Source: Ustilago trichophora (Eukaryota; Basidiomycota; Ustilaginomycetes; Ustilaginales; Ustilaginaceae). From it: DNA of 64,000 bases. Location of the stretch: positions 186,001 to 250,000 of the forward strand of contig OOIN01000013.1 in the NCBI GenBank assembly GCA_900323505.1, written 5' to 3'. Below the pieces are notes generated by a model. That model was not told where the DNA came from. It did not search any database and worked only from the letters and a program-made list of their open reading frames with translations. How positions within the stretch are numbered: the stretch's first letter is position 1; each line of letters begins with the position of its first letter. A program made the position numbers and the translations under genes. Positions 20,773-30,718 of this stretch are shown here, one piece after another.

Positions 20773-20798
20773 TTTTTTTTTTTTTTTTTTTTTTTTTT
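20773..20798 (+). repeat. Poly-T tract (26 T)
   Basis: A run of 26 T about 210 bases after the MRC1 stop, in the convergent space before the methyltransferase-hydrolase fusion gene. Confidence 0.9.
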
Positions 20799-20927: not shown

Positions 20928-23282
20928 CTATTCCAGCCATACAGAGCGAAAGACGCCAAACTGATCTTTTTCAGATCTGATCTTGACACGATTCCGCTGT
21001 TCCACTTGACCAAGGGTGAGGAAGTGACATCTCTCTCTGATCCATTCTAGCGTTAAATTTTTGACCAGAGTTGATACTTGTCCATCTTGAGCTTGACAAC
21101 TTTGTAGCTCGGTCTGTGTGAGGGGGGAAAGGACCCAACGATCTACGGTTATCGGTTTGGATTTTCTGGGTTCGAGGTTGGAAGGTAGCCAACTGGATTT
21201 GTTGCTTTCGTTGTTGGAAGAATGTTCAGGACGTCCGATTCCAATTTTGATGCGGGAAAGTTTCGGTCCACTTTCCACCTCGGTATTTGCTCCTCTTTTC
21301 CGGTTGACCGAAGTGGAAGTGGAAGAAGCGGAAGTGGGAATGTCAAGACGAGATATAATGTCCCTTATTCCATTATGACCTCTTGCACTACCTGTATGTT
21401 TAAGTTTGACCGAATTAAAAGGTAGATCGAGTTCATCTTGGAGGATTAGTAGGTCGTTTTCGATTCGCCATTCTTGCGATTCACCTTGCTGACGAGGTAA
21501 AGTAGCAGTATTAGGGGAAGGGGTGGGATTGGTGAATGCGGGATGATGCGATTGGAGGAAAGATCTGACTCCAACACCGGAGAGATTCATCGCTTGCCAA
21601 GGCTTGTATAGTGCCACTTGAATCTGATACACTTCGTGTTGATCTGGTAAAGAGGAGGAAGAGAAGAATTGGGGTGAACAAGGGATCAGAAGCGTCATGG
21701 TTGCCGCCCAACCGCCGCTCTTTCCGATGTTGACTTTGGATAATCCCATCGGCATCTCTTCTGACCCGATAAGATGGTTGAGGATCACAGGCTGGTTCCA
21801 ATCGTCTCTGTGGTTCACATCGATACGTCCTGATGCGAGAGCTTCGATCCGATTCTCTTCCAACCCATCTCTGATCTGTCGTAACCGCATTCGCACCTCT
21901 CGATCCTGCTGTATGAGAGCCTGCAGTAAAGGTTCTAGTACAACCTGCCCTATCGAATGCCTGGTATTCGGATGCGTCGTTGCGTTTCCTACACCAACAA
22001 CCACCAGCGTATGTCCCTTCACCGGTACAATGGTCGGCATTCGATCCTTGGGTGCTTTGAACTCGAAATGTAGCTTCTCCACCGCTCGCTGTTGTCCTTT
22101 GCCATACTCTGCCACTAGACGAGGAAGTGATGAGGTGGAGGGGAAGGCGGAAAATGAGGGTCGATGTAAAAGTTCCGCCAGTCGGTGGTGAAATGCCAGT
22201 CCGTGTCTGTCTAGATAGCTCTGTCGATCTTGACTTGGCGCAGAAGAGGGGGGATTATCCGGAGAGAAAGAGGAGGAGGTGGTGGTGGTGGCGGGTGCAA
22301 TGGAACGCTCTCCAATGAGCGCCGCCGGATCTTCATGTTTTCTAACTTCGGCATTCAGGTTGATCCATTCTCGACGTGGGATATAAGGCGGGTTGCTGAG
22401 GATCAGATCAAACGGTCCTCCTGCCAGTTGAGCCAACTGATCCATATCGGAGTCGCTAAAGATGTCGGCTTGGACAATGTCTAGATTTGAAAAGCAATCG
22501 TCAGTCTTGAGCAAGCCGAGTTTTGTCGCATTCTCCCGTGCCAAATCTACCGCTAGCGACGACCTATCACAAGCCACAACTTTCCAATCTCCATCAGGCC
22601 CCAACTTGGCGCGAAGAGCGTTAGCAACGAGCAAGGCTATGCATCCAGACCCCGTGCAGAGGTCTACGATTCGGATCGATTGTCCTCGTTCCCTCGTGGG
22701 ATCCAATGATTTTACCAACCTGTCAACCACTTCGGTTGCCCAGTGCTCCGTCTCTGGTCTAGGCAGCAGGATAGGTGGGCGTACGGTAAGCTCCTGTGGA
22801 AGATTGCCAAAAGGGACACTCCCCAGTAGGTACGAAATCGGCACGTTGCACTTGGTCATCTGTGCGACCATCGAGATGAGTTTTCGGCGCGAAGCTCTGT
22901 TGAGCGCGGATGTCGCTGCTGAGGACTCGGATGTAGATGCCGATGCTTGGAGTGCACGTACGTGCTGTACAGTCCAGCGGATTTCGGATTTGGCCAGTTG
23001 GACAGCTTCCAGTCGCTCAGCTTTCTTTCGTGCGTTGTTGGAGATACCGACAAGGCGGTAGGTCTCTTGACGCCGACGAAGGGCGCGGATGAGGGGCTCG
23101 TCTGTGGTCCAGAATCTGCGTGCTCGAGAAGATGATGGAGATGATGTGGGGGAAGATACGTTCGATGATGACGATAGGGTGGATGCTGTTGCTGCAGAGT
23201 GTAAGGGCCTTGCAAAGCGGCGAAGAAGGATGAAGGGGCGGATGAAATTGCCTGCCGGCGCTCTTACATTGCTCGCCAACAT
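20928..23282 (-). CDS. Fused mitochondrial release-factor methyltransferase and peptidyl-tRNA hydrolase
   Basis: A single intact frame of 784 residues from the ATG at 23282. Residues 1-60 are Arg/Ser-rich and acid-poor, typical of a mitochondrial presequence. Residues about 60-415 are a HemK/PrmC (Mtq1) methyltransferase: SAM motif DLCTGSGCIALL at 207-218 and catalytic NPPY at 297-300, which methylates the GGQ glutamine of release factors. Residues about 424-784 are a bacterial-type peptidyl-tRNA hydrolase (Pth1): GVGN at 430-433, TRHSIG with His442, MNLSG with Asn566, DELDLP with Asp616 and SARGHNG with His636. All catalytic positions known from E. coli Pth (Asn10, His20, Asn68, Asp93, His113) have counterparts. 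Ser-rich inserts separate the conserved blocks. The two domains join with only about ten residues between them and no stop, so this looks like a true fusion. Confidence 0.92.
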   Translation of the reverse strand: MLASNVRAPAGNFIRPFILLRRFARPLHSAATASTLSSSSNVSSPTSSPSSSRARRFWTTDEPLIRALRRRQETYRLVGISNNARKKAERLEAVQLAKSEIRWTVQHVRALQASASTSESSAATSALNRASRRKLISMVAQMTKCNVPISYLLGSVPFGNLPQELTVRPPILLPRPETEHWATEVVDRLVKSLDPTRERGQSIRIVDLCTGSGCIALLVANALRAKLGPDGDWKVVACDRSSLAVDLARENATKLGLLKTDDCFSNLDIVQADIFSDSDMDQLAQLAGGPFDLILSNPPYIPRREWINLNAEVRKHEDPAALIGERSIAPATTTTSSSFSPDNPPSSAPSQDRQSYLDRHGLAFHHRLAELLHRPSFSAFPSTSSLPRLVAEYGKGQQRAVEKLHFEFKAPKDRMPTIVPVKGHTLVVVGVGNATTHPNTRHSIGQVVLEPLLQALIQQDREVRMRLRQIRDGLEENRIEALASGRIDVNHRDDWNQPVILNHLIGSEEMPMGLSKVNIGKSGGWAATMTLLIPCSPQFFSSSSLPDQHEVYQIQVALYKPWQAMNLSGVGVRSFLQSHHPAFTNPTPSPNTATLPRQQGESQEWRIENDLLILQDELDLPFNSVKLKHTGSARGHNGIRDIISRLDIPTSASSTSTSVNRKRGANTEVESGPKLSRIKIGIGRPEHSSNNESNKSSWLPSNLEPRKSKPITVDRWVLSPLTQTELQSCQAQDGQVSTLVKNLTLEWIRERCHFLTLGQVEQRNRVKIRSEKDQFGVFRSVWLE

Positions 23283-23823
23283 CTTTGCACTGATCACCCC
23301 TAGCACATGGCGTCAGATGTATGAGACGTATCGATGCGGCGTATAACACCAGACGTCAATGGACCATTGATAGAGAGGAAAAGAATCAGAAGCCTGACTG
23401 TGAAACAAGCCGAAAAAAAAAGGTGCAAAGTGGAGAAAAAGAAGCTGTGCTGCTCCGATTTCCGAGGTTTGTTTTGGGAGGCCACGCGGCGAGTGTGAGA
23501 TGATGGGGGAACGGGTATTTCGCCGCGTGGGGGTGGATTTAGTGAGGGTGAGCTGCCGGTGCATGGCCTTCCGATCTTCGGTTGCGAAAAGACTCTACTG
23601 GCCCGTGCAGGCTCACCACGACGGCTATACAGATCAGGTCAGACGGGCTCCACTCGCTCCGAGGGATGATTCACTCTTCGACTGAGCAGCAACAGAGGGG
23701 GAGCAGCTGCTTTGGCACCGCAGCGAGTATATAGACCCGCCATTCCTGTGTCGGTGCATCCTTTTCTTCCTCCTTCCATCAACGATCTCCCCTCTTCCCC
23801 TCATCCACAGGACCTCGCAAAAA
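23283..23823. promoter_or_regulatory. Divergent promoter region of the fusion gene and the aldo-keto reductase
   Basis: About 540 bases between divergent starts. No gene is seen. A GTATATA stretch near 23727 lies roughly 95 bases before the reductase ATG and could be a TATA-type element. The last 60 bases are pyrimidine-rich. Confidence 0.5.
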
Positions 23824-24985
23824 ATGGCTCCTACCGCTGCCAACCCCAAGGACTGCCCCGAGTATGATCCCAAGAACATGATCTTCCGCCGACTCGGCCC
23901 CTCGGGTCTTCGAGTTCCGCTCTTCTCGCTCGGCGGTTGGCTGACCTACGGTGGCACTGTCAACGGCGACGAGACCAGGGAAATCATCAAGCTCGCCTTT
24001 GAGAACGGTATAAATTTTTTTGACACGGCCGAGGTGTACTCTGCTGGACAGTGTGAGGTTGAGATGGGAAAGGCGATTCGTGACCTCAACCTTCGTCGAT
24101 CCGACCTTGTGCTCGTCTCCAAGATCTTCTTTGGCGTAGGATCCAAGGATCCGAATGGGCGCGGACTCAGCAGGAAGCATATCATCGAAGCGGCCAATGC
24201 TAGTCTGGAGCGCTCCGGATTGTCGTACTGGGATGTGCTGATGGCTCACCGACCCGACCCTACGGTGCCGATGGAGGAGATTGTTCGCGGATTCAACCGG
24301 CTGATCGAGAGCGACAAGTGTTTCTACTGGGGTACATCCGAGTGGTCGGCTCAGCAGATCGAGGAGGCGCATGCGATCGCCAACCGACTCAACCTGATCG
24401 CACCCATCGCTGATCAATGCCAGTACAACATGTTCCACCGTGAACGTCCCGAAAAGGAGTACGAGCCTCTGTACAAGTCGCACAACTACGGCACCACCAT
24501 CTGGTCACCTCTCGCCTCGGGCTTGCTCACGGGCAAATACAACGACGGTGTTCCGTCGGGCTCTCGGTTTGACACCAACAAGAGCTTCTTTGACAACACG
24601 GTCAAGGAGCTACAGACGCCCGAGGGTAAAGCCAAGATCGAAAAGGTCAAGAAGCTCACCGAGATTGCTGATGGTCTGGGTGCCAAGGTGACCAACCTTG
24701 CACTTGCTTGGTGTGCAAAGAACCCCGTGAGTGCCACTTTTTCGGCTTTTTGCTTGGTGCTGCGAAAGTGTAATATGTCTTGCTGATGACCAGTTATGTT
24801 TTGGGTTTTTTTTTTGCGATTGACAGAACGTCTCCACCGTCATCCTTGGCGCTTCCAAGCCGGAACAGATCATCGAGAACCTCAAGTCGCTCGACCTGAT
24901 TGAGAAGCTCACTCCCGAGATCATGTCGCAGATCGACGAGGTGCTGGGTAACAAACCTGCGCTACCTCCTCTTTACGGAAGGTAA
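23824..24985 (+). CDS. Aldo-keto reductase, voltage-gated K+ channel beta-subunit type
   Basis: Two exons, 23824-24726 and 24827-24985, joined across a 100-nt intron with GTGAGT and TTGACAG ends. The intron interrupts between KNP and NVSTVILGASKPEQIIENL, a conserved block of the family. The product is 353 residues. It is an NADPH-dependent aldo-keto reductase of the AKR6/Kv-beta group: FRRLGPSGLRVPLFSLGGW at the start, catalytic tetrad Asp and Tyr in FFDTAEVY, Lys in LVSKIFFG and His in LMAHRPDP, and the cofactor segment WSPLASGLLTGKY. Fungal members are cytosolic enzymes of unknown natural substrate, and no channel partner is encoded nearby. The strong codon bias and well-formed leader suggest high expression. 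Confidence 0.93.
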
Positions 24986-26001
24986 ATATGTCCGCAGCGT
25001 CTAGCGATTTAGTCGCCGTTGGAATCGAAGGAGAGAAAAAGAAAAACTCAAGAGTGGTAGTGCTGTGTAATGAAAAGCTGTTTGGACGAGTTTTGTTTAC
25101 CAAGACCCGCTTGCCTTTTGCCCAAATCCAACGAGCAGGGGTCGTACGTCGTTTGCGCCCAATCGCGCTTCTGTTAGGAGCAAGTTGTGAGGTGATGTGA
25201 GCTGCTTCTCGACTGAAACTGGGAGATTGCTGCTTTCGTTGCTGTAAAAGCTGTGTTGGGAGAAAAAAAAGGCTCACTCTCTGAAACAGTGGACTGTGAG
25301 GATGTTTTATCTTGCCCAACTGGTTGCCCGTGACCTTTTCATTCTCCACTTGTTTGTGCCTGCTTATACCTCTGACCTTGCTTCTTTCTGAATGATGATT
25401 CCAGCATAAGATCTGTGTCGATAGGAGAACCAAACATGTTGAATGACAACTGAGTTCCGATGTGAGAGCAAGTGACGACGATCTTGGTTGAATCTGTGAA
25501 GCTAGTGTACCGCTAAAGAAAAGGCACGGAACTTTAAATTTAATTTGATTTTGCAGGATGACCGGAGAGTGACAGGGTTGGACATGCACACACGCACGCA
25601 CGCACAGATGCCAAAATTTCATCTCCGAGTGTACTGTACTGTACAGTATGTGTAAATGCATGAAATATAGCGAGGATGCAGGCGCTTATCTCTCTCTTCT
25701 TGTTCCCGCCCACGAACCCCGCGCCGCACCGAAATTCGATTTTGGACAGAGAAAAAAGACACCCCCCTGTCACAACTCACACTCGGCTGTTGTGTGTTGG
25801 AGAGGCTGCTTAATTCGTTCCGTCGTCGATCCGCTTTTGAAGTTTGCTCTTTCTCCTCACTCACATCAGTTTCTGTTCTGAGATCGACACCATCAAGTGA
25901 TCTCTTCGGGTCGTTCAGCATGCTCCAATCCTTCTACTAGATTCCTTCACATCACATCATCCACCTACCATCGGATTCCAGAAAGAATTCGTCCTCCTAC
26001 C
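24986..26001. other. Intergenic region with TGTAC repeats, no gene seen
   Basis: About 1 kb between two plus-strand genes. The ORFs here look like chance. It contains a TGTACTGTACTGTACAG stretch near 25630-25648, one of several such clusters in the window, and short A-runs. The right part should hold the promoter and leader of the His-tract gene. The frame of that gene is open back to about 25897 but without a better ATG. Confidence 0.5.
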
Positions 26002-27831: not shown

Positions 27832-28773
27832 TTAGAGATTCCTGAGATTCTTTGCGGCCCATTCAAAAGCGACGAAAGTGGCCGCGTTTGCAAAAGGACT
27901 TCTTACCAACGTAGGCAACAATCCTCTAAAGAATCCTCTAACACCATCTGCCTTGAACGTCTGACGGATGCAATCCAAAACACCCTTGTATCTCCTCTCC
28001 TTGGCATTGAGCGCGTCGGTTTGAAGCTTGCTCTTGATGATATCGGCAGGATAGGCGGTCAACCAGAGACCATAACCTGCCATGGCTCCTGCGAACATTG
28101 CATAAGTTCCTGGTAGTTCGTCCCGGGTGATCTTGTCTCTAGACAACTTGTACTGTACCAGGGCTTCGTAGGTTAGAAAGTACATTCCCATACCGTGAAA
28201 TTCTCGCGCAAAAGTTGCACTCTGTCCTCGATACAACCCGTTCAACAGTCCACTTTGAGATGTAATCTGTCGAATACAGTCGATGGGTCCTTTGTACAGT
28301 GGAGGCGTGGGTTGGGTTTGAAGACGAATACGAATATGTTCCACTGGTCCTGCAACAAAGCTGTTGGCCAATCCTGCGATACCTCCTGCCAGATAGAATT
28401 GCGGGTAGCTAAGATCTCCCGTTGGAGCACCGGATTTGAGGTTGTACTGCGAGAATTGTCGTTTGAGCGCCTCGACTACGCCGAATTGGATACTGACACA
28501 TGCACCGACTCCCAACAGCGGGGTGAGGGTGCCCTTGTAGAATGCCAGGGGGCCTTCGTTACGTACGATACGTGTGGCACAGTCGAGCATGCCTGTGTAG
28601 GTTCCGGGAGGCGAAGTTTGCAGTCGAACTTTGAGGATGTCGAGAGGTTGACCTACAAGCACTTGAGCAATGCCTCCAAAGGTTCCGGCGAGGATGTCTT
28701 TGTGTCCTTGAGATAGAAGTGGATCGCGCTTGGTAAGCAGCGGATCCTTGGGAAGGCTGTTGAGTTCCGCCAT
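27832..28773 (-). CDS. Mitochondrial carrier, YMC1/YMC2 type
   Basis: A 313-residue protein with three repeats of the mitochondrial carrier (SLC25) fold. Each repeat carries a Px[DE]xx[KR]-type signature: GQPLDILKVRLQ, AGPVEHIRIRLQ and AYPADIIKSKLQ. The opening block DILAGTFGGIAQVLVGQP and the segment FYKGTLTPLLGVGACVSIQF closely resemble yeast Ymc1/Ymc2, inner-membrane carriers linked to amino-acid and oleate metabolism. The second signature has Glu-His in place of the commoner Asp/Glu-x-x-Lys, as some subfamilies do. Single exon, intact, and the ATG at 28773 gives the usual family length. Transported substrate cannot be told from sequence. Confidence 0.9.
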   Translation of the reverse strand: MAELNSLPKDPLLTKRDPLLSQGHKDILAGTFGGIAQVLVGQPLDILKVRLQTSPPGTYTGMLDCATRIVRNEGPLAFYKGTLTPLLGVGACVSIQFGVVEALKRQFSQYNLKSGAPTGDLSYPQFYLAGGIAGLANSFVAGPVEHIRIRLQTQPTPPLYKGPIDCIRQITSQSGLLNGLYRGQSATFAREFHGMGMYFLTYEALVQYKLSRDKITRDELPGTYAMFAGAMAGYGLWLTAYPADIIKSKLQTDALNAKERRYKGVLDCIRQTFKADGVRGFFRGLLPTLVRSPFANAATFVAFEWAAKNLRNL

Positions 28774-29370
28774 CCTGACTATTCTCTACACCGAGGATGT
28801 GGCTGAGGGTGGTGTTGGTGAAGAGGAGAACAGGGTCCACAGGAGGAGGGAGAGATAAGACAAACAGAGAGAGATCTTCTGAAAATCACAACTGACTCGT
28901 GCTTTTTTGTTCTTTTTGTTTTTTCGCCGTTCTGTTGCCCGACTCACGTTTCCTTCCGGACGATAGGAATTTTTTAAAGACTCTGAGAGAAATTTGGCCG
29001 CTTTACTCCACATCCCCTTCTTCTTCGTGTCTCCTCTTGACCAAAAATTGCTTTCCGTTCAACCACACCCTCCTCACTCATCCTCCTTGACACCTTTCAT
29101 CATCGACATCGATAGGAACAACATCAACAGCAATCGAATCCTCGAAGCTCGGGAAACGATACAAACAGCTTGACTCGACCATCGTCTCTGACGCAAGCAC
29201 GCTCACGCTCGAGTGTTCCCAACAAGCCCGTCATTCCAACCATCGTCGAAACCTTTCTTGTCAGCCTCGACCCCTCTCATCAAAAGCAACTCAAGAAACC
29301 AGAACCTCTCGCCTTTCCTCAGAGCACCATAAGCTGGATTCCCAACTCAGCGTAGTTCCTTCCTGCCAAA
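28774..29370. promoter_or_regulatory. Divergent promoter region of the carrier and RRP40
   Basis: About 600 bases between divergent starts, with no gene. The right half is C/A-rich, typical of a fungal leader. No specific element was recognised. Confidence 0.5.
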
Positions 29371-30472
29371 ATGACGGTCGTTCTTCCAGGAGACGTCCTC
29401 CCACTCCCTTCTTCCAGTTCAAATATCAAACTTGGGCCCGGTCTATTGCCTTCCCCCCACACGACGACATCATTGACGGCGATCAGGACAGGTGCACTCG
29501 GTCAGATCGATCCCTCTTCTTCTAGCACCCCGATAGCCAAGAAGAAACATGCAGAGGCGGTGGCCTGGATTGAGACCAATGCGAATCGTGTACGTACACC
29601 CTTCACTCCCTCCTTACCGTTCTATCCACCATGGCCATACCTCTCTTCCTTGTCACCATTGGACATGTTCCCACGTTGCTCGTCACTCTCTTGCTAACCC
29701 ACATTCCGTCCCTACCCTCCTCCAACCACTTTGCATACAACAGTACATCCCATCTCCATCCGACCCAGTAATCGCCCAAATCACCAATCGAGGAGCCGAA
29801 TCCTACACCGTGACCCTCTTCTCTTCGCACAGCGCCACCCTCCCTGCCCTTAGCTTTGAAGGAGCCACAAAACGACACAAGCCCAACTTGCGAATTGGAT
29901 CTTTGGTCTATGCCAAGATCGTCACTGCCGACCGATTCACCGAACCCGAATTGACCTGTGTCAACCCCGTTACAGGGAAATGCGATGGTTTTGGCGACTT
30001 GAAAACCACCGATGAGAGAGGAGAGAAGAATGGTACCGCTATGGTGGTTAGGGTATCCATTGGGTTGGCGAGAAGGTACGTTTTCTCTCACATAAAATCT
30101 CATAACGGAGAGAAAGAATGTATGCTGACAGGAATCCTTTCTTTACATTACGATATGTGGTATGCGTATATCAGTCTGCTCCGCCCAACGCACCAACTCC
30201 TCAAACTAGTAGCGAATCACTTCCCATTCGAAGCAGCAGTAGGAGCAAACGGTCTCGTCTGGATCAGAGCCAACCAAGTCAAACACGTCATTGCCGTATC
30301 CAAGGTGCTACAAGCAGCCGATCTCCACCCCACCGCCCACGACTCTACGATCCAGCACGAAGAAGAAGTAGATGAGCAAGAAGCGGACGTGGATGCAGAG
30401 TTTATCCTCAAGAATAGAGCCTCTGGATTGGACGCCAAACGGGTCCGGGCTATTGTTGAGGAGTTTGTGTAA
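29371..30472 (+). CDS. RRP40: Exosome cap subunit RRP40 (EXOSC3), three exons
   Basis: Exons 29371-29589, 29744-30075 and 30175-30472 give 282 residues with no frame break. Rrp40 is one of the three S1/KH cap proteins of the RNA exosome, which processes and degrades RNA in nucleus and cytoplasm. Seen: an N-terminal VLPGDVLPLP and GPGLLPSP block; the S1 start YIPSPSDPVIAQITNRG spanning junction 1; the family signature SFEGATKRHKPNLRIGSLVY; PELTCVNPVTGK; and the KH-type FEAAVGANGLVWIRA. Intron 1 (154 nt) has GTACGT and CAACAG. Intron 2 (99 nt) has GTACGT and ATATCAG. I chose its acceptor at 30174 because it yields LARSLLRPTHQLLK, as in the family. An AG at 30130-30131 is an alternative acceptor but breaks the homology. 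Confidence 0.9.
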
Positions 30473-30718
30473 GAAGATGCTCGTAATGGATCCTCTTTTT
30501 TTGTGACTCTCTTGTGGTCTGTTTGTGTTGCGAATAGTAGTTAAGGGCGGGCTGTGTGCTGTCGTGTGTGGTGGAAAGGTGCCTCTCGAGGTGGTGTTGG
30601 ACGAAGTGGCAGATTGAGACAGCGATTCACATGAGTCGAGCCATTATGAGGCATACATGACAAGCAACAAACAAAAAGAACGTATGATTCGAACAACCAC
30701 TATGACCCCACCTTGGTT

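Follow-up and report, generated by a model that had tools for sequence, protein, structure and literature searches.

The 64,000-nucleotide stretch of DNA analysed here (the window) covers positions 186,001 to 250,000 of contig OOIN01000013.1 of the smut fungus Ustilago trichophora. One of its genes, on the minus strand at 20928..23282, probably (with a probability of about 0.8) encodes a bifunctional, mitochondrial enzyme with a nested fold, in which two known enzymes, the release-factor glutamine methyltransferase Mtq1 (HemK family) and the peptidyl-tRNA hydrolase Pth1, are combined in one protein. Enzymes of the first type activate release factors, and Pth1 cleaves peptidyl-tRNA that has dropped off the ribosome. 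Our sequence comparisons and structural models indicate that Pth1 sits within Mtq1, following helix E and preceding strand beta6, rather than being appended to it. The gene is a complete single-exon frame of 784 uninterrupted codons, running from an ATG at 23282 to a last codon that ends at 20931, followed by a TAG stop at 20930-20928. The initial annotation of this locus had described a single intact frame with HemK/Mtq1 and Pth1, and this was borne out, both family profiles being matched above their cut-offs. One polypeptide carrying both enzymes and conserved in the smut relatives found thus stands, whereas the proposed order of Mtq1 followed by Pth1 does not.

The methyltransferase is predicted to be built from two segments. 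The first (residues 58-407; 22062..23111, minus strand, as for all features of the gene) comprises the N-terminal helical domain and the Rossmann methyltransferase as far as strand beta5 and helix E, and HemK/PrmC structures align with the protein from residue 55-60. The HemK family profile TIGR00536 matched residues 82-324 with 118.6 bits (cut-off 115.5), and a sequence match to E. coli HemK/PrmC was found in the PDB (E 4.6e-11). The S-adenosylmethionine-binding motif DLCTGSGC (residues 207-214; 22641..22664) and the catalytic NPPY motif (residues 297-300; 22383..22394) lie within residues 207-300, where they had been placed before, and D207 and N297-Y300 are kept in 23 of 23 aligned proteins. 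The second segment (residues 766-784; 20931..20987) corresponds to the C-terminal beta6-beta7 hairpin, with predicted strands at 768-772 and 778-783, so that the sequence profile of the tail and the predicted models together give a complete HemK fold including this hairpin. Ahead of the first segment, residues 1-57 (23112..23282) form an N terminus with 7 Arg/Lys and no Asp/Glu in its first 55 residues and with a predicted local distance difference test score (pLDDT) below 50 up to residue 47-50 in the AlphaFold models. These features are as expected for a mitochondrial import presequence, in agreement with the earlier description of an import-type presequence, and suggest that the protein may be imported.

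The inserted Pth1 domain (residues 421-757; 21012..22022) matched the Pth profile PF01195 with 64.7 bits against a cut-off of 27, the best stretch being just residues 606-646, and sequence matches to Pth1 of several bacteria were also found in the PDB. The five catalytic positions that had been named from the sequence were confirmed by the alignment: N433 and H442 are kept in 23 of 23 proteins, and N566, D616 and H636, together with N637, in 22 of 23, the sole exception at these four being P0019, an apparent broken gene model. We take their E. coli Pth counterparts to be N10, H20, N68, D93 and H113/N114. In the models the domain also contains a long helix at residues 449-484 (window 21831-21938). 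Since stand-alone Pth1s of Malassezia, compared by eye, also carry additional residues after the His motif and before the GW motif, this segment may be older than the fusion.

With Pth1 lying inside Mtq1, the protein has two junctions and not the one that had been placed at 21900-22200. The first is a linker at residues 408-420 (22023..22061) and the second, defined by the models, a linker at residues 758-765 (20988..21011). In a joint alignment of fused and stand-alone proteins (23 rows) the end of this protein, KDQFGVFRSVW, falls on the HemK hairpin, which in stand-alone Mtq1 of Malassezia, Meira, Rhodotorula, Trametes, Kwoniella and Coemansia mostly reads D-x-x-G-x-x-R-x-V, and D773 and R779 are nearly invariant across all rows. 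Because the ends of alignments can be forced together, we also carried out an alignment-free test, in which a 20-position hairpin profile made from 115 HemK rows (P0027-P0141, including P0048, an apparent chimeric metagenome fragment) was slid along the 21 fused proteins with intact ends; P0015 and P0019, which have different, apparently broken C-terminal ends, were omitted from this test. In 21 of 21, the highest-scoring position along the full length coincided exactly with the final 20 residues. Shuffled tails equalled the tail score in 0 to 11 of 2000 cases, and the best of 112 Pth C-termini reached -7.9 bits, lower than every fused tail.

Structural models pointed in the same direction. 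Two AlphaFold models were examined, one of them made without stand-alone HemKs and both without P0015 and P0019. Compared with E. coli PrmC (2b3t), 268 and 265 of 276 residues were aligned, spanning residues 59-784 of the fused protein, and Pth structures aligned with the models at about residues 420-755. Both models have two strands at the C-terminal end, where the PrmC alignment runs to residue 784. Additionally, by eye, the stand-alone Malassezia-type Pth1 P0151 ends in ..TWCLSRT, a position equivalent to roughly residue 755 of the fused protein and immediately ahead of the second linker. Given such a nested fold, the cleavage into two parts considered in the initial annotation would not be expected to yield two working enzymes, since a single cut would split the methyltransferase.

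The fusion is conserved in the smut relatives found, and the 22 relatives that align with the protein place it well beyond chance. A whole-protein search, suggested earlier as a check, scored 7987 candidates and gave 25 rows, namely the protein itself, 22 relatives and two HemK proteins without Pth. The relatives come from smut fungi (Ustilago hordei, Melanopsichium, Pseudozyma hubeiensis, Moesziomyces, Sporisorium, Testicularia, Kalmanozyma, Thecaphora and Pseudozyma flocculosa) and from metagenomes, and their source labels are MTQ1 or related to MTQ1 in some cases and hypothetical in others. Both domains are present in 21 of the 22 (PF01195 was precomputed for 21 of 22), and P0019 begins the Pth domain and then diverges. 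Five models (P0014, P0016, P0017, P0020 and P0022) start late in HemK, which we took as gene-model or contig-end effects. The first-junction stretch, GKGQQ..VEKLH..L.APKDRLP...V..LVVVGVGNATTHP, differs in length by at most one residue among P0001-P0020 and by more in the three most distant rows, P0021-P0023, of the 23-row alignment. A sequencing error or lost stop at the junction, which had been raised as a possible cause of the fusion, is ruled out because the junction is in frame in 22 aligned relatives, and the objection that close relatives might have separate Mtq1 and Pth1 genes fails, as those relatives are fused. All protein searches scored about 8000 candidates each, with the best 120 matches listed in two of the three; none of the matches listed was from Ustilago maydis by name, and Exobasidiomycetes were sampled through Meira and one Meira-like record. 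Among individual records, P0026 (243 aa, 67% identical) ends just past the first junction and is an apparent fragment of another fused gene, which we left out of all counts. P0023, a metagenome protein of 517 aa that is 38% identical over half of the query, is the most compact nested Mtq1-Pth1, has no obvious presequence and, of the fused proteins, branches deepest in the HemK tree.

Malassezia, which belongs to the same subphylum as the smuts, has both enzymes as separate proteins: stand-alone Pth1 was found in Malassezia psittaci and Malassezia sp. CBS 17886, and stand-alone Mtq1 in M. yamatoensis and M. vespertilionis, as well as in Meira. In a HemK tree with 24 stand-alone rows picked from the 115, the 21 fused rows (P0016 and P0020, which have no HemK N-terminal part, were omitted and P0015 and P0019 kept) grouped together with a Shimodaira-Hasegawa-like approximate likelihood ratio test (SH-aLRT) support of 99, the chimeric fragment P0048 being among them. 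In the Pth tree, from which P0015 and P0019 were omitted, fused and Malassezia-type Pths grouped together (93), with no further resolution. Both trees were quick ones with long branches and imperfect roots, as P0040, out of five rows meant as bacterial outgroup, was placed among the Malassezia-type HemKs and P0164, meant as a stand-alone fungal row, with the bacterial Pths. A bacterial origin of the inserted Pth was unsupported, the stand-alone proteins that came closest in E-value and tree position, among the matches listed, being from Malassezia or grouping with it. The simplest reading of these sequences is that Pth1 was inserted once into Mtq1, both genes being the fungus's own, in a common ancestor of the fused smuts; a later split of the fused gene in Malassezia is possible. 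Two records in these data deserve mention. P0047, a fern record (Adiantum nelumboides), is an Mtq1 that groups with Meira in the HemK tree (SH-aLRT 100) and probably represents fungal contamination of the plant genome, and P0171 of Rhodotorula toruloides (533 aa) has PF10187 and Pth1 in one record, which could reflect either merged gene models or a further Pth1 fusion, in another lineage of fungi.

An exon-by-exon search of the 38.8 Mb genome, which an intron-split gene could escape, found no second Pth1, PF01195 having a single match, and no other HemK over the TIGR00536 cut-off, with one match above it and six weak ones below, two of which exceed the cut-off of TIGR00537 (Mtq2 type). Pth2 is represented by two loci and a weaker third, and RF-1-domain proteins by six loci in three pairs, each with GGQ, which are candidate methylation substrates. 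Five locus pairs that we compared (three release-factor domain, one Pth2 and one Mtq2; C15/C16, C3/C5, C36/C30, C21/C27; L010-L022) have blastn blocks 74-89% identical, so that the genome behaves like two diverged subgenomes and looks like a hybrid, diploid or dikaryon assembly. The fused gene is single-copy, its sole match being to itself. Its neighbours, an aldo/keto reductase and a stretch with a mitochondrial carrier and RRP40 (window 23000-25600 and 27835-30500, C12), are single-copy too, whereas both copies of a control stretch were recovered. The single copy therefore reflects the region and not the fused gene alone, and could be due to homeolog loss, to loss of heterozygosity with collapse or to an assembly gap.

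According to the mechanism that we propose, the Arg-rich presequence would take the protein into mitochondria, where the methyltransferase would fold from its two stretches, 58-407 and 766-784, with the whole Pth1 domain held in the loop between helix E and beta6, as sequence and models indicate. From its family, the Mtq1 part would methylate the mitochondrial release factor, and perhaps other GGQ proteins, at the GGQ glutamine, and the Pth part, judged by family and catalytic residues, would cleave peptidyl-tRNA dropped off the mitochondrial ribosome. The two active sites are probably independent, as we saw nothing that points to a channel. Nesting would fix the two activities at 1:1, with one presequence delivering both, and their synthesis, import and degradation would go hand in hand. 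Of 19 stand-alone Pth1s from fungal or fungal-like sources that were measured, 18 have just 7-30 residues ahead of the first motif (57 in the other), which makes the gain of a presequence for Pth1 a plausible benefit of the fusion. A more far-reaching and rather speculative proposal, to which we give a low probability, is that this is an obligate nested enzyme coupling release-factor activation to peptidyl-tRNA rescue, in which Pth1 has become wholly mitochondrial, Pth2 is left in the cytosol and the methyltransferase, bound to a release factor, brings Pth to ribosomes that are failing. The nested enzyme itself predicts that in these fungi Pth1 is gone from the cytosol and that Pth2 stays there. 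The mammalian Mtq1, HEMK1, is responsible for methylation of the GGQ glutamine in mitochondrial release factors (PMC8904536), and in S. pombe loss of Mrf1 is compensated when the GGQ protein Pth4 is present at high dosage (PMC3919214).

Several points weigh against a bifunctional, mitochondrial, nested enzyme. The fused tails scored -4.1 to 17.1 bits, compared with a median of 36.2 (lowest -23.7) for stand-alone HemKs, and the 21 fused proteins of the tail test are mutually related and thus non-independent; with such modest absolute scores, the weight of the test lies in the position of the best match and its consistency. The cut-offs of both bacterial equivalog profiles were missed, that of PrmC (TIGR03534) with 126.7 against 199.1 bits and that of Pth1 (TIGR00447) with 69 against 100 bits, and because of the former we file the protein as HemK family, Mtq1-like, rather than as bacterial PrmC. 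Furthermore, the free Pth tree placed the fused P0023 with the Malassezia-type Pths (93), splitting the fused group, although a tree in which the fused proteins were held together was 2.1 log units better (approximately unbiased test, p-AU 0.558), so that one fused clade is not rejected. Both activities and the location are predicted from family and sequence. In addition, HEMK1 loss had little effect in HeLa cells (PMC8904536) and S. pombe pth1 and pth2 deletions gave no detectable respiratory phenotype (PMC3919214), so that neither activity can be taken for granted as strongly required.

The order of the Pfam and NCBIfam matches, which by themselves give HemK first and Pth second, would fit an end-to-end fusion in which the final hairpin of Mtq1 was lost, Pth1 was attached after the shortened enzyme and the tail is the Pth1 C terminus. 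This is hardly tenable, since the HemK hairpin finds its best match in the final 20 residues in 21 of 21 proteins, the Malassezia-type stand-alone Pth1 stops before the tail residues (by eye), and both models place two strands in the tail, with PrmC aligned through residue 784; the tail test and the models together reject a plain end-to-end fusion. That two products are made, splicing removing the Pth segment to leave an Mtq1-only form beside the long one, is quite unlikely in our judgement. An in-frame pair does exist, with a donor GTAGGA at codon 431 and an acceptor CAG at codon 762, and would give a 452-aa Mtq1 with hairpin, which is a further point against a single bifunctional product. 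However, our scan gave only one candidate donor, a weak one, together with four acceptors, which we judged chance-like; a 996-base intron would be long for such fungi; and the Pth catalytic residues kept in 22 or 23 of 23 proteins argue that the long form is used.

A nested enzyme with both activities is also compatible with linkage that has no function of its own, in that an insertion which occurred by chance could no longer be undone after loss of the free Pth1 gene, and to this we give only a little less than an even chance. None of our results shows coupling, a release factor and a peptidyl-tRNA are non-successive substrates, and a nested insertion would be hard to reverse; none of the 21 intact-end fused proteins is split again, a count that holds by construction of the set. 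Against this, retention across the fused smut sequences found is likewise compatible with selection for co-delivery, and the short N termini of stand-alone Pth1s (7-30 residues in 18 of 19) suggest that the fusion would supply a presequence. It is very improbable that the Pth domain has lost its hydrolase function and serves Mtq1 as an RNA-binding adaptor, in the manner of CRS2, which is not known to have Pth activity. CRS2 (1ryb) did head the Pth-fold rows ranked by Z in each of the two comparisons, level with the hydrolases, but all catalytic positions are kept and the genome search found no other Pth1.

The nested Mtq1-Pth1 shares with Mtq1/HEMK1/PrmC (E. coli PrmC, 2b3t) the S-adenosylmethionine motif, the NPPY motif and the fold including the N-terminal helical part, and differs from the aligned stand-alone proteins, whose chain is continuous, in that about 340 Pth residues interrupt it before beta6-beta7. 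Pth1 (E. coli 2pth, M. tuberculosis 2z2i) is normally free, whereas here it is an insert with a long helix at 449-484. Unlike CRS2, a stand-alone chloroplast splicing factor with a Pth fold, the insert keeps the catalytic residues. The bifunctional PrmC-TrmB (NF002421) similarly combines a release-factor methyltransferase with a tRNA-related enzyme in one polypeptide, but its partner enzyme differs; PrmC and TrmB are joined end to end, and the NF002421 cut-off was missed here (35.5 against 567 bits), the PrmC part alone being matched. No description of the fusion was found among the papers listed by full-text searches of a PubMed Central subset, which includes few subscription journals. The nested Mtq1-Pth1 is thus apparently undescribed, as far as found, rather than unseen, as the domain pair is visible in public protein records.

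This protein would represent a conserved natural joining of two organellar-translation quality-control enzymes in a topology that is hard for evolution or proteolysis to undo, and a clear case of a whole enzyme inside a loop of another enzyme. Any benefit of co-locating termination-factor methylation and peptidyl-tRNA recycling becomes directly testable with it, and the non-fused Malassezia counterparts in the same subphylum allow the origin of the insertion to be studied. Lastly, a long T run (plus strand) lies at about 20773-20798, some 130 bases past the stop codon of the gene.
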